Source of the DNA: Bacteroidota bacterium
Lineage (GTDB): Bacteria > Bacteroidota > Bacteroidia > AKYH767-A > 2013-40CM-41-45
Assembly (NCBI GenBank): GCA_004295015.1
Contig: SHNE01000022.1
Coordinates: 1 to 64,000, forward strand
Direction of reading: 5' to 3'
Length of the DNA: 64,000 bases
In this document: positions 17,879 to 42,134 of the stretch, in pieces
How positions within the stretch are numbered: the stretch's first letter is position 1
Layout of the letters: every line of letters starts with the position of its first letter
Translations under genes and position numbers: made by a program
The notes under the pieces: model-generated
The model's input: only the letters and a program-made list of their open reading frames with translations
Database searches by the model: none
Told to the model about the DNA's origin: nothing

Positions 17879-19555
17879 ATGATTCAAAAAGATCCCGGGC
17901 TTTACGCCTGTAGTTTATTCCTGAGTTTGGATGATGCCGTTATCGAAGAAATTCTTTCAGGCTCAGAAAGTAAAGACTATCCAATCGGGGCAGTTCTCAT
18001 AGAAAAGGGAAAAGTGCCGGACGCATTGTATATAATCCGTAAAGGGAAAGTAGGGATTTATAATGAAGATATATTGCTTGCTCAGTTGGAGCCTTACTCC
18101 ATCATGGGAGAAAGTTTTCTGGCTGATGCTTCTGCTACTGCCACGACCGTTACATTAACGGATGTTTCTACTATTGAAATCAAGAGGGATCAGTTTTATA
18201 ATCTCTCTGTTAAACATCCGAGACTTGTTTTTAATATTTTCAATATAAATTTCCAGCGCCTCAGAAATTCAAATGATGCGGCCTTAAAAGAGGCGCATGA
18301 GCGGGAGGCTAAACTCGAGAAATTAGTTAACGAGCGGACAAAAGAATTGTTTGAAACGATGGAAGTTTTAAGGTTTACAAACAATGAATTATCTGTCACC
18401 AGGGATAATCTGATCGAAACACAAAAGTTCAGACAGCAGTTCTTAGCGAACATGAGTCATGAGATTCGCACTCCAATGAATGCGATTGTTGGTTTGACAA
18501 ATTTACTTATCAAGAGTCCCCTAAATGAGCAGCAAGAAAAATATTTGAATGTGATCAAGAAAAGCGGAGCTAATCTCCTCGTTATTATAAATGATATTCT
18601 TGATCTGGCAAAAATAGAAAGCGGTAAAATGGAACTTGAGTCTGTTCCTTTCCCACTCATTGCTACTGCGCAAAACATTCAAACCATTCTTAGTTTGAAA
18701 GCAGAGGAGAAGGGTGTTAAAATGTTTGCCGAAATTGCCGAAGATGTGCCTGAATATGTTCTTGGCGATGAAACACGAATTACACAGGTGATTATGAATC
18801 TTGCGGGGAATGCGATAAAATTTACCGAGAAAGGAAGTGTTACTTTGTCCATCAGCGTAGTGAACAAAGATCCGGAAAATTGTTTGGTGTTGTTTAGTTT
18901 GAAAGATACAGGTATTGGTATTCCTGCTGATAAACTTGATACTATTTTTGAAAGTTTTGGTCAGGCATCGTCTGAGACAACCAGAAAATTTGGGGGAACG
19001 GGACTGGGGCTAACGATTTCCCGGCAACTGGTAGAGATGCACGGCGGTGAATTAAAGGTGCGTAGTACCATTGGGAAAGGTTCGGAATTTTACTTTTCCA
19101 TACCGTATAAAATAGGAACAAAACCGCTTGAAGAAGTGAATGGGAAGCTTGGGGAAGATGAAAGACTTAGTGGTAAGAAGATATTACTGGTAGAGGATAA
19201 TGAATTCAATCAAATGGTGGCAGTAGATACTCTTCTGGATCTTTTCCCGGATCTACAGGTGGATGTGGCACTTGATGGAAAAGAAGCCTTGGCCATGCTG
19301 AACTCGAGTGATTACAGCTTTATTTTTATGGATATTCAAATGCCGGTAATGGATGGTTATGAAGCCACTAAGGAAATTCGGAAGCTTAAAGACGAGCATA
19401 AAAAAAATATTCGAATTTGTGCCATGACTGCAAACGTTACCAAGGAAGAGATTGATAAATGTTTATCTGTTGGTATGAATGACTACCTCATGAAACCATT
19501 TGATCAGGAGGTACTGAGAGAGAAAGTGCTTCGGAATGCATTAAATAGTGAGTAA
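17879..19555 (+). CDS. Hybrid sensor histidine kinase/response regulator with cyclic-nucleotide-binding-like domain
   Basis: This 558-aa cytoplasmic protein has no membrane helix. Domains in order are a cNMP-binding-like beta-barrel (about residues 15-120), a coiled-coil linker (140-180), HisKA with phospho-acceptor His194 ('FLANMSHEIRTPMNAIVGL'), HATPase_c with 'GNAIKFTEKGS', 'DTGIGIPADKL' and 'GGTGLGLTIS', and a receiver domain with phospho-acceptor Asp485 ('FIFMDIQMPVMDGYEA') and the conserved 'MTAN' and 'KPFD'. In the cNMP domain the phosphate-binding cassette has Gly77-Glu78 but lacks the Arg that normally contacts the cyclic phosphate, so cAMP binding is doubtful. A phosphorelay His-to-Asp role is clear; no HPt partner is encoded in the window. 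Confidence 0.92.
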   Translation: MIQKDPGLYACSLFLSLDDAVIEEILSGSESKDYPIGAVLIEKGKVPDALYIIRKGKVGIYNEDILLAQLEPYSIMGESFLADASATATTVTLTDVSTIEIKRDQFYNLSVKHPRLVFNIFNINFQRLRNSNDAALKEAHEREAKLEKLVNERTKELFETMEVLRFTNNELSVTRDNLIETQKFRQQFLANMSHEIRTPMNAIVGLTNLLIKSPLNEQQEKYLNVIKKSGANLLVIINDILDLAKIESGKMELESVPFPLIATAQNIQTILSLKAEEKGVKMFAEIAEDVPEYVLGDETRITQVIMNLAGNAIKFTEKGSVTLSISVVNKDPENCLVLFSLKDTGIGIPADKLDTIFESFGQASSETTRKFGGTGLGLTISRQLVEMHGGELKVRSTIGKGSEFYFSIPYKIGTKPLEEVNGKLGEDERLSGKKILLVEDNEFNQMVAVDTLLDLFPDLQVDVALDGKEALAMLNSSDYSFIFMDIQMPVMDGYEATKEIRKLKDEHKKNIRICAMTANVTKEEIDKCLSVGMNDYLMKPFDQEVLREKVLRNALNSE

Positions 19556-19729
19556 GTATTGATTATTGTTGTTTCTGAATATCAAATGTTGCATTCGTGA
19601 ATAAACATATAGCTTATAATTAATATATTTCTATAAAAATCATCGAAGATAGTTCTATCTGTTTCTGTTAAAAAAATCATTTGTATGAAGCAAGCACAGT
19701 TAGAATTACTTTCAGGATCATTGATAACA

Positions 19730-20314
19730 ATGAACAGATACGAGAAAGCAAAAACGGATATACTTGATTATTTAAAATTGAGCCTCCCCGATACTCTTTA
19801 TTATCACAGTTATAGTCATGTATTGGATGTATTAAAGGCAGCGGAATATATTGCCGAAAAGGAAGGTGTAAGCGAGAGTGACCTGGAGCTGCTCCGGATT
19901 GCGGTCCTGTATCACGATTCAGGTTTTACTGTTGATTCAAAGGAACACGAAAAATTGAGTTGTGAAATAGCACATAACCGATTGCCTGCTTTTGGTTTCA
20001 GCTATAATGAGATTGAAAAAATTTGCCATATTATTATGGCCACAAAATACCCTCATGCACCGGCCGGTTTATTGGAGGAAATAATTTGTGATGCTGACCT
20101 CGACTATTTAGGGCGTGATGATTTTTTTGAAATTGGAAGAACATTGCTGAGTGAGCTCAATGAAGCAGGTCGTTTTAAAACAGAAAAAGACTGGAATCAT
20201 TTTCAGGAAAAGTTTCTTAGTTCACATAAATATTTTACAAAAACTGCCAAGGAATTGCGTCGGGATAAAAAACTTGAGCACCTTGAAAAAATAAGAGAAA
20301 GTTTGAAAGAATGA
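19730..20314 (+). CDS. HD-domain phosphohydrolase
   Basis: The product (194 aa from the ATG at 19730) is a metal-dependent HD-superfamily hydrolase. Ligands are visible as 'YYHSYSHVLDV', the eponymous HD in 'AVLYHDSGFTVDSKEHEKL', and the downstream 'CDADLDYLGRDDFFEIG'. A start at 19685 would add 15 residues; the shorter form begins 'MNRYEKAKTDILDYL', as related proteins do. HD hydrolases act on nucleotides or phosphate esters; the substrate cannot be told from the sequence. It lies 130 bp behind the hybrid kinase on the same strand and ends 25 bp from the convergent adenylate cyclase gene. Confidence 0.85.
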   Translation: MNRYEKAKTDILDYLKLSLPDTLYYHSYSHVLDVLKAAEYIAEKEGVSESDLELLRIAVLYHDSGFTVDSKEHEKLSCEIAHNRLPAFGFSYNEIEKICHIIMATKYPHAPAGLLEEIICDADLDYLGRDDFFEIGRTLLSELNEAGRFKTEKDWNHFQEKFLSSHKYFTKTAKELRRDKKLEHLEKIRESLKE

Positions 20315-22480: not shown

Positions 22481-25400
22481 TTATTTTCGTATGACGAAAA
22501 ACTTTTGCACCGATTTTTTTCCATCCATTGTGACTGCAAGGAAATAAACTCCCGGTGACCACAATGAAGATTCAATATTCAGGCTATGTTCGCTATTTGC
22601 TTCAACGAATCTGTCGAACAATACTTCTGATCTGGATCCATTGATTTGATATACTTCAATTAGCACCTGATCGCTTGTACCTGTGATAAATTTTAACACT
22701 GCATCTCTTGTGGCTGGATTAGGATATAGTTGGAAACTCATTACTTCATCCATTTCAGGTGCTTCCAAGCGGCAGTTAGTATTTACCGAAACTGATTTGT
22801 TTTTAGGTAAACTTAAACCGCAAAGGTTTTCTGCACGTACAGTTAGTGTTGTTGAATTTGAAGTTCCCGGACTAAAGTTAACAAGGGCTGTTGTGCCTGT
22901 TCCCTGAGGTGTAGGAATAACTCCATTTGTTGCATACCAGTGATACGTTATGGTTCCGGGTACTGTAGATGCTGTATATAGTACAGAGCTTTGGCTCTTG
23001 CAAGAAGTTGCCGGCCCATCAAGACTTGCCGGAGCCACAAGTAATGCAGAGACAGGTAAGCAACGTGATATGGAAGCTCCGCATGCATTGGTTGCGCTTA
23101 CGCATATAGTACCATTACCTGTGAAGGCTGCAGTATAGTTTACGGTTATAGATGTACCTGTGTTTGAGATAATATTAACGCCTGAAGGTACAGTCCAGTT
23201 ATATCCTGTAGCTCCGGTTACGGAAGCTATACTGTATGTTACACCGTTGGTCAGACATAATCCTGTATATGGTCCGGTAATTCCTCCCGGTTGTCCGGGG
23301 ATGGATCTGATTGTAAATTCACGAGTAAATGTTCCACATGCATTACTTGTGGATATCGATAACACTCCACTGGTAAACGATGGTCCAAAATTGAAGCTTG
23401 CGCTTGTACCGTTTTGCGAAGCAACACTCACATTGCCGCTAACTACCTGCCAATTGTAAGTGTCAGTCCCGATAACAGGTGCCATTGAATAAACTACTCC
23501 ATTGGTTCCTGCACAAACGTAAGTAGGTCCATTAACTGCATTGCCATTTACAGGAAGTCCCGTAATAGTCATTGATCTTGTTGAAGTACTTCCCAGGCAA
23601 TTAGATGCATAAACCATTACTCGTCCTTGTCCAAATGTTTCATTAACACTCACCACGATCGAATTGGTACCTTGCCCGCTTAGCAATGTAGCACCTGATC
23701 CGGTTACTGTCCATGTATAACTGGTCGCATTTTGTAGCGGACTAATTGAATAAGTATGAAGGGCAGGTCCGCATGCTATGGATGGTCCGGCAATGAATCC
23801 CGGATTTGATGGTCTAAGAGAAAGCACGATGATATTTGTGCTGGATATTTGACCACTACCACATAAGTTTTCAGGCTGAACACTCAAGAAGCCACCATTG
23901 AAGGTGCTTGAGAAGGAGAGTGTAATTGAAGTTGTAGTCGAAGACCCTGTAGCTCCTGCAGGTACTGTCCATACATATGAAGTAGCACCTGAGACCGGAG
24001 CGATAGAATAAGTGACGCTGGTACTGCGACACGCTCCAGGAGGTCCTAAAATTGCTCCTGCAGGATCAGGCGGAACACCGGATCCGTTTACGGTTACATT
24101 TACAACTCCGGTACATCCGGCTGCATCTGTAATCGTCGCGGAATAAGGTCCTGCAGACAAGCCGGTAGCAGTTTGTAAAGTTTGTCCATTCGACCACAGG
24201 TACGTATAAGGAGCAGATCCACCGGTAGGGTTTACCGTAGCAGTTGCATTCGCTAATCCGCAAATTTCACTCGTACTGCTGGCTGTACCTTCTACTTTAG
24301 TTGGTTCCAGTAATTCGAAGGTGCCTGTGGCAATATTGCCATTATCATCAATTACAGTAAATGTTTGTACGCCTGCCACAACTCCACATACATTTCCGGT
24401 ACCGATATAAGGAGCAGTTCCACCGGTTACGGTGACATTAACACATCCCGTTCCGTTGAAACACTGTATCGGACTTGCCTCTTCAACCGTTACGTTGATA
24501 ACAGGCGGAAGCATGGTCAGTGTACCAAGACCGTAGGTGATATCAAAATTATTTGTTGAAAGCAATGCGCCCGGAACAATCTTGTGTACGCCGGCTGTAG
24601 TACCGGTGATCATATTAATTGAATAGAACGTTTCCAGTGAATCTCCCGGAGGGGCATTTACATCTTCTTCATCGATGATTACAAGCACGTCATCATGTGA
24701 AGGATCATCAACGTCAACACTATTGACAATTGCTCTGCCATTCACAATGGCCCGAGCATTAACGATTGGCCGGCCATTGACGATAGCCCTTCCGTTCACG
24801 ATAGCTCTTGCATTTACAATAGCTCTTGCATTTACAATAGGCCTTGCGTTCGCAAGAGGTGCAGAGTCAGGATTTAATTGATAGTTAAAGATAGATTCAA
24901 CAGCTACATCAATAATATTGGTGGTGTCATATTCAACTATGTTGTTGACAATAGCTCTTGCATTTACAATTGGTCTTCCATTCACAATAGCTCTTGCACT
25001 TACCATGAAGCTTAATGTTTCTATATCTGCATTAACGATGGCGCGTCCATTAACGATTGCTCTTGCATCGACTAGGGCAGTAGCATTCTCAGCAAGGTTG
25101 TCTTGATGTTCGTTAACAAGGTCAGTGAGGAATATCGCGCGGATGGCCGGTTCAATTTTCGAATCGTCATAATTATAGCTAAAGGAGAATCCATTAATTT
25201 TTTGCCCTTCCGTTAGGGTGGTATCATTTGGTGTAATTTCCAAAGGAAGTTTTTCGATTGACAAAATTGCGTTGACGAAACTGAAATTATATTGTTCAAG
25301 AATTCCGACATCAATGCTGTCAGCCGGATTCAAAACGCGCATTGAAGGTTGGATGAAATACGAACCAACATTACTCAGGCTGTGAGCCGGGGTAAGAAAA

Positions 25401-28400
25401 AAGATTGTGTCTAATCCAATATCAGACATAGTCAAACCCGTATTTGCAAGCGGTATGCTGTCAATTGTTACTGATACAGAAAAAGCCGGAAGCGTTTCAC
25501 CAAATCTTTTTGATGTGTCATTTGCTGTAACAATGACCATGTGTTTAGTGCTTGGGAAGAAGAATGCGGAATCTGAATGGCCACCATCATTCATATTTAT
25601 TGCGGCCGGAGGAGTATAAACTTGCACCGGCGGGTTACCCATAAATGGAGGGAAAGAAGCCAAGAGTTGTGTTGAACTTATCATTGTTGTTGGAAGCGGA
25701 TCACCTCGTAAGAGAACTACGGATGTTGGCGTGTAAAAATGACCGTGAACATTTACATCCATGCTTTGTGTTCCTGCAATAATTGTGGTGTCAACAATAT
25801 TTAAACTACTGATAATTGGTTTACCAATTGCAAACGATTGCAGAGCAGCATCAGCTTGAATAAATCCGAAACCGGTGCTGTCATCATATCCCACTGTAGG
25901 TCCCATTTCAAGAGTGGTAGTTTTGAGAATGGTTCTGATTTCTTCCGGGGTTAATTCAAGGTTGGAGAATTTTCTCTTTCCTTCAATGAGCAATGCAGCT
26001 ACAGCAGCAGCGTGAGGGGCCGCGGCAGAGGTGCCGAAGAAGTTAGGTAATAAATCACCGTCGATATCTGGGCCGCCAAGCATAACTGTTGTATTTCCTC
26101 CATTAGGTCCTACAAAGTCCGGCTTCATCCTATTCACACCATTGATCAAAGCGCCTCCAATTGAAGAGAAAGTAGCAATAGTCGGTTGAGCCAGGGTGTC
26201 GTTGAAGGCAGGTGTATTCAGGTATAAAGCTGCTCCTACTGTCATAGCTCCTGAAGCATTAGCTTGTCCAACAATGGTTGAAGATTCAGTATTGTATTCA
26301 TTAATTACACCTTCACCACGGAAAATAATATACTTGAATTTTACGTTTGAGCTTCCGGCAACTTTTGTGATCATGATATTTGCATCTGTGTTCCCTCTAA
26401 CGGAAAATGACAATACTTCTACCGGATCACCGTTGATGTTATCTCGATTAAAACCGAAGAGTACGACTCCGCCATTATCAACTAAATAAATATCTAAATC
26501 AGTAGCTGCACCAGGCAGTTGTCCCAAAGAATACAAGGAATCTTCCCATTGCAAAACAATAGTATATGCTCCACGAGCAAGTGAGAGATTTTGATAAATA
26601 TCGCCGCCACCAAAATTATGTGGAACGCCAAATACACCAGGGGGAGTTGGGGCCGGTTGGAATGTTCCTTCGTATGATTTTTTTCCGTAGTTACCTGCAG
26701 CAGTGAAATAAGCAGTTCCTAGGTCTGTGACATAGTTTACAGCCTGAGCTACGACACCATCTTGGTAGAATGGTTCTGTGATAAATGTGATATCATCAAC
26801 TATTACGTCACAAAGATCCTCTTCACTTAGTTGCTTGATACCATTTGCTAAGTCACCCGCACTAATGAAGCCGGTTCGAAATGCAAGCTCAGCATCCGGT
26901 GCGACGTCGTGCACAATTTGCAGCATGGCCCGACCTTCATCGGTTCTTAATCCGAAAGGATATTCCTTTCTGACAGTAACAGGGATTGTATGGCCAAACA
27001 GGTTTCCGATTCCCGGCAAATCGCCGTTGCCAACGTCTGTCAATGCCGGATTTCCAATAATTGTGTTATAGCTGTCTGAAAGAACACCAACTTTTACGCC
27101 GGCGCCACTTAATCCGAATGAACTTCTTGCTCTGTCTCCGCGGATGGCAACATCACCATCACTATAAGCCAGCCCTGTTGCTCCGGAACCAATCACCGGT
27201 GGATAATATGGTCTTCCAAAGTTCAATAGCGTTGGGATACTATCAAGTTTTCCAAGATTTCTAATTGGATATTTTCCGGTAATGATCAAGGAGCTAAGAC
27301 CGTTGTCGACGGTATCAGTCAATCCGTAATCAGGTGTAATCAATAATGTATACAAGGAATCACGCATCCCTTCAATTGCAATAAATTCCATGAGTACACT
27401 ATCGCTCCTGAATAAGAGGAGGTTTTCGTTCAAAGTGTCTTGGGCTATTGTATCAACATTCTGAAACAAAGATGTAAGCTCTGAACCAATAATATTTGCA
27501 ACGTGTCCGCTATCGGGTGGTGTAACAGCAGGAACGATACAGGTAATTACGGTAACGTTTGCTGTTGTTACTGCCATACAACCGGATATGTCAGTGACAG
27601 AATAGAAATAAGATCCGGTTAGTAAACCTGTTGTAGCAGCACCTCCCAAAGTGTATGGTGGTGTTCCTCCTGCAGGAGTTAGTGCTACACTTCCGGTGCT
27701 TCCAATACATACATCTTGTGCTGTTGGGTTTGCTGTTAATGTGAGTTGTGAAGCTTGTGTGATTGTCAGGCTACAGGTAGCGCTACAACCATTCGCATCA
27801 GTTACGGTAATTATATAAGTGCCTGCAGAAATTCCGGTAAATGTTCCTGTGCCTGTATATGGGGCTGTTCCACCGGAGGCAGAAACACTGTAGGATCCTG
27901 TATTTTCACCGAAGCAAAGCACATTTGAAATTACAGTACAGGAAGCTGAAAGTGTTTGTGGCTCTGTGATAGTTGCCCCACATGTTGTTTGACACCCATT
28001 CGCATCTTCAACATTATAATAATATGTACCGGCTGATAATCCGCTTAGCGGGTTACCAAAGATTGTATAGGGAGGAGTTCCTCCGCTTGCAGTTACGAGT
28101 GAAACTCCATCGGAAGCACCATTGCAACTAACACCTGAAACCTGCGATCCGAATGCATCCAGATAATCTGGTTCTGTAATAGTCGCTGCAGTTGTTGTAA
28201 TACAACCCAAAGCATCTTCAACAGTATATACAGTAGTACCTGCACTCAGTCCGCTAAATATTCCGGTTCCTGTATAAGGTGCGGTTCCGCCACTTGCATT
28301 TATACTGATTGAACCATTGTTTCCATTCCGGCAACTAACATGATTAATAACTGTCACAGATGCAATTAAATTACAGGAAGGTTCATTTATGGTCACTGAA

Positions 28401-33589: not shown

Positions 33590-36500
33590 TTAGTTGCCTT
33601 TTATCACCTTGAATATCTGTATATCCTGATCTGTATTAAGCAGAATAAAATATATTCCTTCGCGGCATGTTGACATATCGATTTCAAAAACGGAACCTTC
33701 GTTTTTCTGTGTCACAGAAACTGCATAAGTCTTACCTAATAGGTCTATGAGTGAAATATTTTCCTTGTTGAGCAAGATTTGACCTGCATCAATTGTGATT
33801 TTGTCTTTTACCGGATTCGGAAATACTTCTATCTCAGAAAGAACCTTTTCTTGATCATCTGATTGTATGAGTCTGAGATGTGCAGCACATCTTGACGAGT
33901 TCACACTTGCTTCACTAGCAGCAGCAGTTTTTTGATTTCCCTGATAGGTCTTTACGGACCAGGTTAGTTTTAGACCATCAAAGTAAATTTCAAAGTTTCC
34001 GCCACCAGGGAGAAAGACAATTGGTTGAACGCCGCTAAAGAAACCTAATGAGCTAATTGAATTGTCAACGCCAATCGGAACATAAATAGGCGTGCTGTTC
34101 GCGTTTTCATAGGAGAAGCGAGCGAGGTAGGAGAAACCTGAAGGATGGTTCACCAAAGTGTCTACGCAATTCAAGATTGGTTTTACTTTTTTAGCGCCAT
34201 TGCCTTTCGGATTGATGTATAAATAACCCGGAACATAAACTATCTGGTAATTGCCGGGCTGACTAAGTACAAGGTTTTTAGGAGTAATCGTATACACGCC
34301 GGGAGCTCCTACACAATTTGGACTTACCGTATAACTAGGTTGACACACAATCGTATTCTGCCCTCCGGGAACAAATCCGGTAATGGTAGAAGTTTTGCTT
34401 GGTATTGATGATCCCTGAAAAATATATTTAGTATCAGCAGTGACTGTGAGCGTTGCTTTTGTAATTGTGAGCGTACCATTAACATTTGTAATGGTATAGT
34501 TGAGAGCTGTACCACCGTTTACCGTTATCGGATAATTCCCTACGACCGATAAAGAGTTGGCGCTTGTGCTTGCTGTTGGCTCTGTGATATTGCTCTCTGA
34601 ATCTCCATTTACAAAACCTGAATAAGATACTGTCAGCAATGGAATTGCAGCTCCATACACCTTTGTTTTGTTAGAAGCGGTAGCAATAAGCGTCGCCTTC
34701 GTCACTGTTAATATTCCATCGTGTAATTCAAAATCGTAATTATCTGAAGAACCGCCACTCAATATGATAGGATAAGTATTCACCGCTGAGGTCTGGTCTG
34801 CAATCGAGCTGCCGGTAGGCTCTGTGATATCCGAAGGGTCGTCTCCATTTTGAAAGCCGGAATAGCTTACATCAAAGACAGGATTTGCAGATCCGTATAC
34901 TTTCGTTTTGTTATTAGCAGTTGCTGAAAGTGTCGCCTTGCCAACCTGAATTATTCCATCTTCATACTGCACTGTATAGTTCGATGGGATTTTCAATCCA
35001 AGATTAGATGGTCTCACGTCGAATGTTCCGGCAGGAATATTATTTGCGGGAATTGTCTGATCCAAATTATCCAGCACTGTATAATCCGGATCGGATGCAA
35101 CAACACTATCCAATACATCATCATACTTCAATCCGGAAAGGGTAGAAGTGAAGGAAGGAGTTTGTCCATAAACAGATTGCACACTGTCTGCTTTGAGTGT
35201 GAGAACAGCAGGTAGAATTGTCAGTTGCCCTAATCCATAGGTGATGTCAAAATTGTTTGACAGCAAGGAGCCGGGCACGATAGTATGCACACCGGCAGTA
35301 ATTCCTGTGATCATATTAATTGGTTTGATCACATCAAGTTCATCTCCCGGAGGGGCATCAACATCCTCTTCATCAATAATTACGACGGCATCTTCATTGG
35401 AGTTGTCTGTGACCGTGGAGTTCACTAAAGGAGATCCATTAACAATCGGACGGCCGTTAACAATTGCTCTGCCATTCACAATAGCTCTTGCATTTACAAT
35501 AGCTCTTGCATTTACGATTGGCCTTGCATTCACCAGTGGAGAGGCGGCAGAATCTAACTGATAGTTGAAAATGGATTCGACGGCAACGTCCACAAGATGT
35601 GTGGTGTCCATGATGATTCCGTTCACAATCGGTCTGCCATTTACAATGGCTCTGGCATTTACAATTGCGCGGGCACTGACCAGGAAGCTCAGGTGTTCAA
35701 GATCGGCATTTACGATAGCACGTCCGTTTACTATTGCTCTTGCATCAACCAGTGCAATGGCATCGGCCATATCCGCAGTATGCTCTGTCTCCAATGAATT
35801 TAGAAATGCAGTACGGTTGGCCGGACTGATTTCTGTCTCATCATATGTATAAACAAACCCGAGCTCATCGATCTTGTCGCCATAAGTCATCACCGTATCT
35901 TTAGGAGTGATAAGCAGCGGCATTTTATCAATGCTCAATAATCCGTCGGTGAAAGTATACGTATAACTTTCCAGCAGAGCGATATCATCCGCATTGGTAG
36001 GATCCAATTCACTGATAGATGGTCTGATAAAATATAGTCCTACGTTGCTAAGATCTGTGGCCGGTGTAGAGAAGTTCAGACTGTCGAGCCCCAGTTGTTC
36101 GAGGGTGTAGCCGGCAGTCATGTAAGGCACTCCATCCACTTCAATGCTTGCAGTAAATTGAGGTAAAGCTTCTCCGAATTTTTTAGACTTGTTTTCAGCA
36201 ACAACCACAATATTCTTTTTCACCGGGGTAAAGAAAAATATTGAATCAGAATAACCACCATCATTCATTGATGGAGTGATAGGTGGTGTATAAACCTGAA
36301 TCGGAGGATTACCGGTGAATGTAGGAATGACAGCAGACAACTGTGAAGAACTAAGTACGGTGGTGGTTAACTCAACACCTCTGAATAGAATTACACTCTG
36401 AGTAGTCAGAAAGTTACCCTGGACAACTACCGTTAATGGCTGTGTTCCCGGTTGTATGGTTGTGTCTGTAGCATCTAAGTCCAAAATTTCAGGAGTAGGC

Positions 36501-39500
36501 GCTGCAAAGGTTTGCATAGCAGCACCGACGTCAACAAAACCATAACCTGTGATAAAATCAAATCCCGGGCTATTCATATCGATGGCCGTGCTTGTCAGCA
36601 GCGAACGGATATCGGCAGGTGAGATAGTCTGATTGTAGAATTTCTTTTTTGCCGACATGAGCAAGGCAGCTCCGGCACCTGCGTGAGGTGCTGCTGCAGA
36701 AGTTCCGAAAAAGTTAGGGAACAAATCACCGTCAATATTGCTGCCGCCAAGTTCAACAGTTGTATTCACGCCGTTTGGTGCACAGAATTCGGGCTTATTC
36801 CTCACTACGCCATTCACAGGCGTTCCTCCAATGGATGAAAACGATGCCACTGTAGGAGGGTTGACTCCGTATGCAGGAGTGTTCGAATAAAGCACTGCTC
36901 CAACTGCCATCGCTCCGGCTGAGTTAGCCTGACCAACGAGCGTTGAATTTCCTGAAGTGTATTCGTTGATGGCGATCTCTCCTCTGAAAACAACATATTT
37001 GAAGTTTACATTATTCGTTCCTGCAGCACGTACAATCATAATGTTTGTAGTAGCATTGGCTGTAACGGTAAAAGGCATTACTTCCAGCGGGTCACCGCCT
37101 AAATTGTTTCTGTTGAAACCAAAAAGTGTAGTTCCATTATCATAGGTAAGATAAATATCAAGATCATTGTTGGTTCCTGTCTGAGTTTGGCCCAATGAAT
37201 AAATTGAATCGAGCCATTGTAGTACAATTGTATAGGTTCCGGGTGTAAGTGATATGCTTTGATAAATATCACCTCCACCGAAATTGTGCGCCGATCCTGT
37301 CAAAGCACCCGGTGCAGGTGCCGCATTGAAGACACTTGCATAGGATTTGTTTCCATAGTTACCTGCTGCAGAAAAATAAGATACTCCTTGACTCGTAACA
37401 AGATCTGCTGCCTGGGCAACAACTCCATCCTGAAAGAATGGCTCAGTGATATACGTTACGTCATCAATAATAATATCGCAGGTATCCTTCTGAAGTTTTT
37501 TAATGCCTTCTGCAAAATCGCCGGCGCTGATAAATCCGGTACGAAATGCGAGCCTGGATTTAGGTGCAATATCATGTACGATCTGTAACATCGCTCTTCC
37601 TTCATCGGTCCTTTTTCCAAAAGGGTAGTCAAGCAATACAGAAACCGGATTTGGATTGTCCGGGTTTCCTATTCCGGGTAAGTCGCCATTAATGACATTG
37701 GTGAAAGCAGGGTTGCCGCTGATGGTGTTATAGCTGTCTGAAATAACTCCGATTTTTATTCCTTCACCGCCAACATTAAATCCGTTTCTTGCGAATAGAG
37801 AATTCATTGCACTGTCTCCTGCAGATTGTACGATTCCACTGGTGGCAAGTGCAGGATAGACAGGTCTTGCATACCGTACGTATTGAGGAATGCTGTCGAG
37901 CTTTAAAAGGTTTGCAATAGGGAATTTACCGGTTATAATTAATGTGTTAGGTCCGTTATCCACGAGATCTGTCATTCCATAATTTCCTGTCTGCAACAAA
38001 GCAAGCAAAGTTTGATACTGACCTTCGATAGCAATTACTTCAACCATTACACTGTCAGATTGCAAAACGAAAATTTCATTTGCAGAATCATTGATACTGT
38101 TGTAGTGGGTATAAAGTGAATTTAATTCAGAACCGATAAGGTCATCAAGTTTTCCATTGGCAGGCGGTGGGTAATAGGGAAGAATGCAAGGAACTAAAAT
38201 GGCTAAAGCCGAATCCTGTGCGGAACATCCATTTGAAAGATTGGTAACAGTCACTATGTAATTTCCCGGTGATACTATTGTAGCACTTGAGCTGTTTGCT
38301 CCTGAAAAAACGGCAGCGCCTCCTTGTTCATACCAAGAGAATTGAGAGTTTGGAGCCGATGATGTAGCTTGTAACTGAGTTAGGGTTTGTGTACAACTTA
38401 GCTGCATATCAGGGCCGGCACTTACAGTGGGATTAGTATTATCGAGGCCGACCTGCACTGTATCGGTTGAGCTACAGCCGCCGGATGGATTTGTAACGCT
38501 AAGGATATAGGTGCCTGCAGCATCAACTAGTGGAGTAAGTGAATTTTCTCCGGATACAATGTGACCATTAGATGTTGTCCAGTTGTATTGCAAATTTGAA
38601 GGGCTGGATGATCCATTCAATTGAACTTGCGACAAAGAACAGGTAAGGTTCAGGTCTTGTCCCGCATTGGCAATCGGAGGTGTGCAGGATTGAAATGGCT
38701 CATGAATGAGAGTGACATTGCATTGAATATTGACTTGAGTCCCACTCCAAAAGGCTCCTGTGAGTGTGCTGTAACCTGACCCGGATCCAATCAAAATAGC
38801 TGCATATGGCGCCCATACCGTACCTGACCATTTAGATCGGGAATTTGAAGAACTTCCGTTTGCTACAATAAATGAAAAGGTACTGTAATTTGTCCCGTAA
38901 CCATTCCCATGAACTTCTGTGAAGATTTTGGATGCGCTACCACCATTAATAATACTTGTACTTACTTTTCCTAAATCAACATCGCCATGCACATAAATTT
39001 TAATCGTTCCGGTCTGATCACCGTTAAAATCAAAGACAAAATTATTTGTATTGCCTGAGTTTTTAATATAACTGAAAACATAAATTCCGGTTCCGCGGAG
39101 GGTAATCGTTTTCCCGCCGGAGAGCTGGATCTTTCCATAATTGCCCGGTGTAATACTGGCAGAATTAGTAAAGTTAGTCGATCCTGCAGCCGGAAAACTG
39201 AGAATTGGGGGAAGGCTTGGCAAAGCGGGTAAGCTAGGTGTTCCGGTAACATTTCCTCCTGCCGGATTTGGTCCTGAATAGGTGGTACCGGTCGGATGAG
39301 TCACTTTTCCGCTAACGGTACCACTGCTGACCTTAATATTACCCTTGACATCTATGTTTCCTCCCAGGATTGCGTTTGATCCAACCTGCAAGATTGTCCC
39401 ACTTGCATTGGAAGTGTTGGAACTGGAAATTTTCCCATACACTTTATTACTATTAGCTAATTCAATTTTCCCTTTTCCATGAATATCATTTTGAATGATA

Positions 39501-40069: not shown

Positions 40070-41836
40070 TTAATGCTTAACTAATTTTTTATGGAAGAAT
40101 TTATCTGCTCCTGATTCTTTGATACGAACAATGTAAAATCCATGTGTAAGATGGTTCAGGTTAGAACGGAGTGTTGTTGATCCAAGGATTTCTTCAAACA
40201 CTTTTTGTCCGCTCAAATTAAAAATCTCAAAATAAGACCCCAATAATTCAGCAGGAATGGATATTGTCAAATGATCTCTTACAGGGTTAGGGAAAATTTC
40301 AATGTGCAATTCGTCATCGTTTTCACTGACTGAAATGGTGCTGTAAAAGAATGCCGATGATTGAATAATACATCCATTGCTATAGGTGGTGCTGACATAA
40401 TAACTTTGGTTAAGACTTGGAACGACAAATGGCAAGGTGTCTCCGTTGAGAATGGCTCCGTTCTCATACCATTGAAATGGCCCGCCACCTGATGCGAATA
40501 ATGTATCATTCATTAGACTTATGCTGACTTCTGCTGCAGGGAGTACGTTGATTGTAGTGTTGTCTGTTGATGTACAACCATTGTTATCAGTCACAAGCAA
40601 TGAGTAATTCGTGCTCGCTATTGGGTTTGCAAGTGGATTTGATACAGTAGCTGAGTTTAAGCCTGATCCAGGTGACCAGCTATATAAATATGGACTTGTT
40701 CCTCCGCTTGCGCTCTGGCTTCCTCCAAGAAGTATGCTCGATCCTTCGCAAATGGTTTGTACAAGGCCGGCATCTGCTGTCAGAGCGACCGAGGGTTGAG
40801 AGATCGCAACCGAAGTTGTCGTGGTACAATTTAATGAATCTGAAATACTAAGCGCATAATTTCCGACAGGTAAATTATTAATTGTGGAGGTGTTGTTGGA
40901 AGGAAAATCAGCCCAGACATAGGTGTATGGTGTAATTCCGCCGCTTACATTTACTGTTGCCATTCCATTTGACCCGCCAAAACATGAAACGTTTGTTTTA
41001 GAAAATGCGCTTTGAATGTTGGAAACTAAAAGTGAAACCGAGCTTGACTGACTGCTTCCGCATGCATTGTTTGCAACCACAGGAAGTGTACCCGAAGCAT
41101 TACCGGCTAAAAGTGAAATCGTATTTGTGCTTGACGTTCCTTGCCATCCTGAAGGATTTGTCCAGGTATAACTTGTTGCTCCTGCTACAGGACTGACTGA
41201 GTAAGTGTGGTTGGAGCCGGAACAAATGGCTGTGTTACCTGAAATTCCGGACGGCTGATCAGGAACAGTGCAAACCTGCTCGTTAATAGTGATGCTTGAT
41301 TTGTATACATAGTCATTGTTGTCATTACCGTTTCCATCAGCTGCTACTCCCGCAAAATAAAAGCCAACAGGACCGGTTCCGGATGCGGGTGCCGTCCAGC
41401 TGAAATTGAAGGTTTTGGAACCACTCATTGCTCCTGCATTAAGTTGGTGAACAACATTCCGTCGGGTGACAGCATTTACCACTCTCGTTTTAATTTGTGT
41501 GGCTGCTGCATCTGTAATGTTCAGTGTGCCGGCATTATCATTAAGGCTGGTTAAAGCTTCGAAAGCAAAACCAAATAAATTGTTAGTAGAACGGGCAACT
41601 GTAACACTAAGGTTATATGTTTGTCCTGCGATATATTCATTTAGAGGCATTCCTGTGTTTTGCAGACTGATTGAACCACCACCCGTATTTACAGGAAAAG
41701 AACCATGACAAGAAGTGCAATCGTTTTCGCCCGGAGAACCGGTGTATCCTGCTCTTCCGTCGTCACTCATTTTTTCGCTTGTCAGGAAAAAAATACAGAC
41801 AAAAGGAATTAGTGCAACAATACATTTTCTTAGCAT
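40070..41836 (-). CDS. T9SS protein with choice-of-anchor V-like domain and CxxCH motif
   Basis: The ATG at 41836 gives a 588-aa protein starting 'MLRKCIVALIPFVCIFFLT'; a TTG at 41848 is less likely. After the export signal comes 'SPGENDCTSCHGSFP', a CxxCH motif that could covalently bind heme c. A domain resembling choice-of-anchor V / Reeler-like domains follows (about residues 50-190, 'SVTVARSTNNLFGFAFEAL', 'GPVGFYFAGVAADGNGND'). Ig/PKD-like segments (195-275), SprB-like repeats ('CFGGSNGMATVNVSGGITPY') and more Ig-like strands precede a T9SS type A sorting domain (last 80 residues, 'IEIFPNPVRDHLTISI' to 'FFHKKLVKH'). Location is extracellular or surface; function unknown. Confidence 0.87.
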   Translation of the reverse strand: MLRKCIVALIPFVCIFFLTSEKMSDDGRAGYTGSPGENDCTSCHGSFPVNTGGGSISLQNTGMPLNEYIAGQTYNLSVTVARSTNNLFGFAFEALTSLNDNAGTLNITDAAATQIKTRVVNAVTRRNVVHQLNAGAMSGSKTFNFSWTAPASGTGPVGFYFAGVAADGNGNDNNDYVYKSSITINEQVCTVPDQPSGISGNTAICSGSNHTYSVSPVAGATSYTWTNPSGWQGTSSTNTISLLAGNASGTLPVVANNACGSSQSSSVSLLVSNIQSAFSKTNVSCFGGSNGMATVNVSGGITPYTYVWADFPSNNTSTINNLPVGNYALSISDSLNCTTTTSVAISQPSVALTADAGLVQTICEGSSILLGGSQSASGGTSPYLYSWSPGSGLNSATVSNPLANPIASTNYSLLVTDNNGCTSTDNTTINVLPAAEVSISLMNDTLFASGGGPFQWYENGAILNGDTLPFVVPSLNQSYYVSTTYSNGCIIQSSAFFYSTISVSENDDELHIEIFPNPVRDHLTISIPAELLGSYFEIFNLSGQKVFEEILGSTTLRSNLNHLTHGFYIVRIKESGADKFFHKKLVKH

Positions 41837-42134
41837 GCTTTCAGGCAAATGATGTGGTTAAGATTTTGAGGACAAAAGTCAGAATCCGTGGCTTGATACA
41901 GAATCCGAATTTCAGAAATTTATTGATTATTCCGGTGCTTTCTTGTAATTATTTATTTCAGATCTGATCGGAAGAGGAGACTCCAGTGCATATTTGGAAG
42001 TAGACTCGATAGTTTTCGGATGGTTTAATTGAAGCTAATTTTCAATTAGAATCTAATCCCCTGATTCTAGCCCGGTTTTATCCCGGCTTGAATAAACAGG
42101 GTGTATAGTATGTAATAGATTCTTAAATTGCTCC

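Follow-up and report, generated by a model that had tools for sequence, protein, structure and literature searches.

Multicopy peptide precursors are familiar from eukaryotes, for example yeast alpha-factor, in which one precursor carries several identical copies of a ligand and the receptor coevolves with it. Among bacteria, the TPR receptors of the RRNPP systems bind short peptides, and the propeptides of these systems may carry several pheromone copies, with up to 8 reported (PMC11343458). In Porphyromonas gingivalis, PorA acts upstream of the PorY kinase, and direct contact between the two was not detected (PMC7712824). No peptide-signaling system from the phylum Bacteroidota was found in the literature searched. 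For protein repeats, Persi et al. (2016, PMC5120217) describe one rule as universal, by which the copies in a protein diverge fast from one another but are preserved from species to species.

The array described here lies in a 64,000-nucleotide stretch of a Bacteroidota genome (GenBank assembly GCA_004295015.1, contig SHNE01000022.1), which is referred to below as the window. Like protein tandem repeats in general (PMC5120217), it consists of short repeats that purifying selection maintains. It reverses the usual evolutionary rule for repeats, in that the copies are alike within a protein and divergent between proteins and species, and continuing DNA copying is ruled out as the reason.

The array and the proteins that carry it

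Protein P0001 contains twelve exact (A/G)R(A/P)IVN units in blocks of two, three, and seven (Table 1), just as the first-pass annotation of the window had described, against a chance expectation of 0.0008 units from composition alone. Codon variation at synonymous sites and selection on the peptide had also been proposed there, and both are supported by a high pS (0.61) and a low pN (0.08) among nine of the P0001 units. That annotation did not include the second copy of the array in the neighboring gene P0002, the location of the array inside an MBG-like domain, or the adjacent receptor gene. A search of this genome found no RAIVN arrays beyond the P0001 and P0002 genes, and antisense matches of the array were judged incidental. 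The segment after the array, IDEEDVNAPPGD, had been regarded as conserved and acidic; it is kept as a segment and is partly acidic, but relatives have IIHESDV or IVNQSDL in its place.

Table 1. Coordinates of the array, its host genes, and neighboring genes in the window
Feature	Positions	Strand	Details
Protein with cNMP-binding domain, histidine kinase, and receiver	17879..19555	+	Cyclic-nucleotide-binding domain fused to hybrid histidine kinase; near the cyclase gene; possible cyclic-nucleotide effector, possibly cNMP to phosphorelay; relative near 4 other loci
HD-domain protein	19685..20314	+	Possible cyclic-nucleotide turnover; relative in 8 other loci
Candidate receptor P0004, 670 aa	20339..22351	-	Signal peptide, TPR domain, one TM segment, class III nucleotidyl cyclase
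P0001 gene, 3542 aa	22481..33109	-	Laminin-G-like, MopE, SprB, PKD repeats, subtilase-like domain, module, T9SS C-terminal domain
P0001 module, 249 aa	24503..25249	-	MBG-like domain interrupted by array; MBG_2 match of flanks; end regions modeled by AlphaFold at pLDDT of about 70 to 90
P0001 array, whole	24722..25066	-	Residues 2682-2796
Word array block 3, seven units	24722..24847	-	Residues 2755-2796; ARPIVN ARAIVN ARAIVN GRAIVN GRPIVN ARAIVN GRAIVN; unit starts 2755, 2761, 2767, 2773, 2779, 2785, 2791
Word array block 2, three units	24944..24997	-	Residues 2705-2722; unit starts 2705, 2711, 2717
Word array block 1, two units	25031..25066	-	Residues 2682-2693; unit starts 2682, 2688
P0001 subtilase-like domain	25820..27424	-	Residues 1896-2430; Glu replacing catalytic His
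Tandem paralog P0002, 2067 aa	33590..39793	-	P0001-type architecture; starts at GTG by ORF rule, perhaps truly farther downstream
P0002 module	35210..35923	-	About 70% identical to P0001 module; word RAIVN in both
P0002 array	about 35438..35740		Second copy of the array
P0002 subtilase-like domain	36495..38077	-	Pfam S8, E 5e-15 (5.2e-15)
P0003, T9SS-sorted protein	40070..41848	-	CTSCHG haem-type motif near N-terminus; relatives near array loci L119 and L137

In both P0001 and P0002, the domains are ordered as a subtilase-like domain, a CoaZ/IPT-like stretch, MBG_2, and then the module, and both proteins possess the T9SS C-terminal sorting domain (PF18962/TIGR04183). Across relatives, the host proteins of the arrays are T9SS proteins of about 1600 to 5100 aa. 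The module is an MBG-like domain whose halves lie on either side of the array. The array had been assigned to no named family, which holds for the array itself, as it is covered by no family model, but not for its flanks, which match Pfam MBG_2 (PF18676) at an E value of ≤0.1 in 13 of 22 relatives (best, 1.7e-7); the window module scores 22.0 bits against a curated cutoff of 25, and clear MBG_2 domains are repeated in P0002. The MBG_2 model has 72 positions and no insert, whereas the modules hold about 120 to 170 aa of array and spacers inside. PDB sequences searched with a profile of the module gave no match, and literature searches on the word sequences and the MBG domain returned nothing relevant. 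Weak Pfam matches on the array (Pam3_gp18, Multi_ubiq, and similar) were treated as periodicity artifacts. An AlphaFold model from a 22-row alignment places the MBG-like halves at a pLDDT of about 70 to 90 and the array at 25 to 45 with essentially no strands, and Foldseek found nothing in the PDB for this model at an E value of ≤0.001. A second model, from a 9-row alignment of uniform arrays, is of low confidence throughout, flanks included (pLDDT 34), and is little informative.

The first-pass annotation had also called P0001 a secreted giant protease. The T9SS C-terminal domain and the subtilase-like domain agree with this description, but Glu stands where the catalytic His is expected. Membership in S8 rests on a direct match for P0002 and is reached for P0001 only via this paralog. 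In a 38-sequence alignment, the catalytic Asp (SDSYN) and Ser (GTSaAAPH) are conserved, while DEGRAML occupies the expected His position, with Glu or Asp replacing His, and the Asp-His-Ser triad is incomplete. The oxyanion region carries Asp, which, together with Glu for His, we take to be somewhat sedolisin-like; this subtilisin/sedolisin hybrid pattern extends across the 38 aligned homologs.

About 60 related modules from Bacteroidota bear out the conservation of the array outside this genome. Within the family, 8 of 11 genomes have the module; the figures are 23 of 42 for the order and 18 of 395 for genomes sampled from the class, and farther out it is rare. The module occurs in every subtilase homolog of the order with enough contig room. 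The loci assigned to named organisms are mostly from Bacteroidota metagenome-assembled genomes (labeled Chitinophagaceae, Sphingobacteriales, and others), together with Ginsengibacter hankyongi. Divergent forms (L063, L064, L065, L074, L075, and L076) have RGTALVN units with wider spacing or eight-residue RAVxIVNG units, and a TPR receptor lies alongside these forms where tested.

One word per protein, different words between proteins

Each protein repeats one short word, which is nearly uniform within the protein and differs between proteins. The words include RAIVNG, RALVNA, RPLVNG, RVVTNG, RVVTSG, KVVTNA, PRVVTN, PRVITN, GKSIVN, GKRSVN, QRAVVS, QRVIAS, LRGIVS, and GRILSN, as well as the seven-residue SRGIANG and the eight-residue RAVxIVNG. 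Among 49 aligned hexamer-type modules, 29 different consensus words were found, and the block layout of 2 + 3 + 5 to 7 is retained across relatives while the word changes. Unit identity within a protein is 0.70, compared with 0.43 when units are shuffled between proteins (41 dereplicated proteins; reached by 0 of 1000 shuffles).

The likeness of the units resides in the peptide. Word-bearing units within a protein have a pN of 0.06 and a pS of 0.67, with synonymous sites near saturation, and codon identity among units is 0.45 against 0.38 expected from codon usage (51 genes). In two gene pairs that are 99% identical, codons match by position (0.94 and 0.89) better than along the array (0.55 and 0.61), which indicates that the array DNA is inherited vertically. 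Near-chance codons combined with vertical inheritance imply that units are not currently copied into one another and that selection keeps them alike. These codon comparisons demonstrate that within-protein uniformity is maintained without DNA homogenization.

The word is also shared between genes of the same genome. Same-genome paralogs share words at 0.79, compared with 0.53 in backbone-matched foreign pairs (P = 0.0004). In the genomes G007 and G002, the paralogs of one both carry PRVVTN in their word units and those of the other both carry PRVITN, and the nonword units of these arrays did not follow the word change. Second copies without a receptor have a word equal or nearly equal to that of a receptor-linked copy, while copies that each have their own receptor can differ in word (GRVVTS and PRVITN in G002; SRPLVN and QRVIAS in G037).

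The adjacent candidate receptor gene and its covariation with the word

The candidate receptor P0004 starts 129 bp past the P0001 stop. A TPR receptor was found within 460 bp downstream and on the same strand for 30 distinct genes spread over many families, and its placement is looser in three loci (172 bp and 2.1 kb upstream and 5.1 kb downstream). Eleven genes, mostly second copies, have no receptor within the available flank. The receptors of 30 loci have the same layout, in which a signal peptide is followed by a TPR region of about 390 residues, a single membrane segment, and either a cyclase or a histidine kinase. Most have a cyclase as output domain, five loci have a histidine kinase (HATPase_c, E value of 1e-19 or better), and no receptor has an HTH. 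The TPR and TM parts are kept where the output domain is swapped, so the sensor is the part that is retained. Both the gene linkage and the output-domain swap are established at the sequence level. Hydropathy (a signal peptide and a single TM segment) would place the TPR domain of P0004-type receptors in the periplasm.

Of the 23 genomes with the module, 17 have a strong receptor match, against 1 of the 19 without it (Fisher, 6e-6), and that one match lies at a contig edge beside the tail of a T9SS protein. The other TPR-cyclases of these genomes, which belong to a more distant subfamily, were not found beside a module, except for one next to a linked pair. The HD-domain protein and, less often, the cNMP-binding kinase encoded nearby are consistent with a cyclic-nucleotide circuit.

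TPR-cyclase genes also appear in other settings. Four lie in a row in one genome (G012, L208:2570-11296), and another (G013), which lacks the module, has at least 11 TPR-cyclase matches. In the genome of L141, the one further TPR-cyclase (L141:85-3339) comes 151 bp after a small T9SS-sorted protein of 377 aa. TPR sensors may therefore be paired with T9SS proteins more broadly than in the array system.

The TPR domains of the receptors have a mean identity of 46%, compared with 68% for the cyclase domains. In permutation tests on distance matrices (n of 16 to 22, phylogeny only crudely corrected), unit identity tracks TPR identity after the identities of the MBG backbone, subtilase, and cyclase are removed (r = 0.47, P = 0.0005, n = 16), and word identity does so under the same correction (r = 0.31, P = 0.01). 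With all receptors included and the cyclase term dropped, the correlation between units and TPR is 0.37 (P = 0.006, n = 22). Subtilase and cyclase identity have no residual correlation with unit identity. The alignments thus reveal a residual covariation between the TPR domain and the word.

A candidate peptide ligand and its comparison with known systems

We hypothesize that the array is a multicopy peptide ligand, a "password" recognized by the periplasmic TPR receptor encoded next to it, and give this function about even odds. The array would offer one short peptide in several copies on a subtilase-like protein that the T9SS brings to the cell surface, where the peptide would stay attached or be released. 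The product of the next gene, a transmembrane receptor, would bind and read the word with its TPR domain and signal inward by its nucleotidyl cyclase or, in some species, its histidine kinase. All units would be kept alike by selection because every copy must fit one receptor, and the word would drift between lineages because receptor and word coevolve. The peptide would either be cut out, putatively by the subtilase-like domain, or act while tethered; it might reach the periplasm as released 6- to 8-mers through porins, or the nascent protein might be read en route to the T9SS. A ligand with its receptor is the simplest reading that unites uniform words, lineage divergence, gene linkage, output swapping, and TPR covariation.

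Several observations weigh against the ligand reading. The surface protein does not share a compartment with the periplasmic TPR domain, except where the peptide is released or is read during transit, and the array sits in a domain whose block positions and nonword units are conserved, neither of which a simple propeptide needs. The genes lacking a receptor in the available flank and the small, crudely corrected covariation tests also count against it. The TPR domain may simply be a better clock, although the subtilase and backbone controls argue otherwise. Linkage cannot separate the array from other parts of the protein, since every subtilase homolog of the order with room has an array.

The main rival is a homotypic structural array, in which units pack on each other within or between molecules as a ladder or zipper and the word drifts as a whole; the receptor linkage would then concern the protein in general. 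Such packing accounts for uniformity without DNA homogenization and for the fixed block layout, and weak beta-solenoid-type profile matches, such as YdcK and LbH proteins, are in its favor, with LbH and hexapeptide models matching single relatives only (E values of 0.003 to 0.05) and not the window module. We regard it as unlikely: no folded array is predicted, the word is common to blocks 11 and 32 residues apart, and units may be 6, 7, or 8 residues long, with interspersed nonword units tolerated and conserved. Neither the TPR-word covariation nor word sharing between paralogs is predicted by self-packing.

The TPR domain could instead sense secretion flux, reading the array as the protein crosses the periplasm to the T9SS, so that the word would serve as an address tag inside the cell rather than as a signal between cells; the logic would be comparable to that of PorA upstream of the PorY kinase. 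This explanation draws on the same covariation and linkage evidence and on the T9SS C-terminal domain, and it brings ligand and TPR into one compartment without proteolysis. It leaves the divergence of the word among lineages unexplained, and the failure to detect PorA-PorY contact (PMC7712824) also speaks against it; we think it rather improbable.

Ordinary concerted evolution, in which a new unit spreads through the array by slippage or gene conversion and then drifts, is a very unlikely source of the uniformity. Raised codon identity in a few genes points toward it (QRAIAS, 0.93 versus 0.47; KVVTN, 0.68 versus 0.39), and episodic DNA spread may initiate new words. Against it, codons are near chance in most genes, each unit is vertically inherited in close orthologs, and uniformity persists despite synonymous saturation; gene conversion as the sole cause was rejected on this codon evidence. 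Least credible of all is the left-handed beta-helix or Asn-ladder solenoid of the first-pass annotation, with a basic Arg face paired to the acidic segment, which is suggested by the period of six, the aliphatic pair, and the turn Asn but is not supported given the low AlphaFold confidence of the array, the lack of a fold match, the 7- and 8-residue units in homologs, the variable acidic segment, and the GSALIN and GIPLVN word types that have no Arg.

With the ligand reading, a putative ligand-receptor gene pair becomes readable from sequence alone. If binding is confirmed, this would be peptide signaling in Bacteroidota, with about 30 natural words and their receptors as a recognition code open to direct testing, and one gene pair comes from a named, cultured species (G. 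hankyongi BR5-29, L031), with a receptor of the kinase type and the word GKAIVA.

Among known systems, PorA-PorXY-SigP of P. gingivalis (PMC7712824) is similar in placing a surface protein with a T9SS C-terminal domain upstream of an inner-membrane sensor; it has no repeat array and no TPR-cyclase, and its link is genetic. Yeast alpha-factor likewise combines one precursor, several ligand copies, and a coevolving receptor, and the likeness is one of analogy only, as no defined processing sites are shown here. At the level of parts, the array system would work most like RRNPP/RRNPPA of Bacillota (Rap-Phr, PlcR, PrgX, and ComR), with no homology shown between the two. In both, the gene of a secreted protein with peptide copies adjoins a TPR receptor gene, and the peptide varies between lineages along with the receptor; extracellular proteolysis is involved in RRNPP, and a protease-like domain is present here. 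The array system falls outside RRNPP in its precursor type, receptor compartment, and receptor architecture. RRNPP propeptides are short (tens of residues) and exported by Sec, in contrast to T9SS proteins of about 1600 to 5100 aa with units inside an MBG-like domain. RRNPP receptors are cytoplasmic and act after peptide import, with a mature peptide of 5 to 10 residues binding to the TPR, which is usually joined to an HTH or phosphatase-type N-terminal part; the receptors here are membrane proteins of Gram-negative Bacteroidota in which a TPR predicted to be extracytoplasmic is combined with a cyclase or kinase as output. This composition is shared by no known system. We tentatively propose, at somewhat short of even confidence, a Gram-negative Bacteroidota password system for kin-specific communication, in which a T9SS protease homolog with up to about 13 lineage-specific words of 6 to 8 residues would coevolve with a dedicated TPR receptor having cyclic-nucleotide or phosphorelay output.
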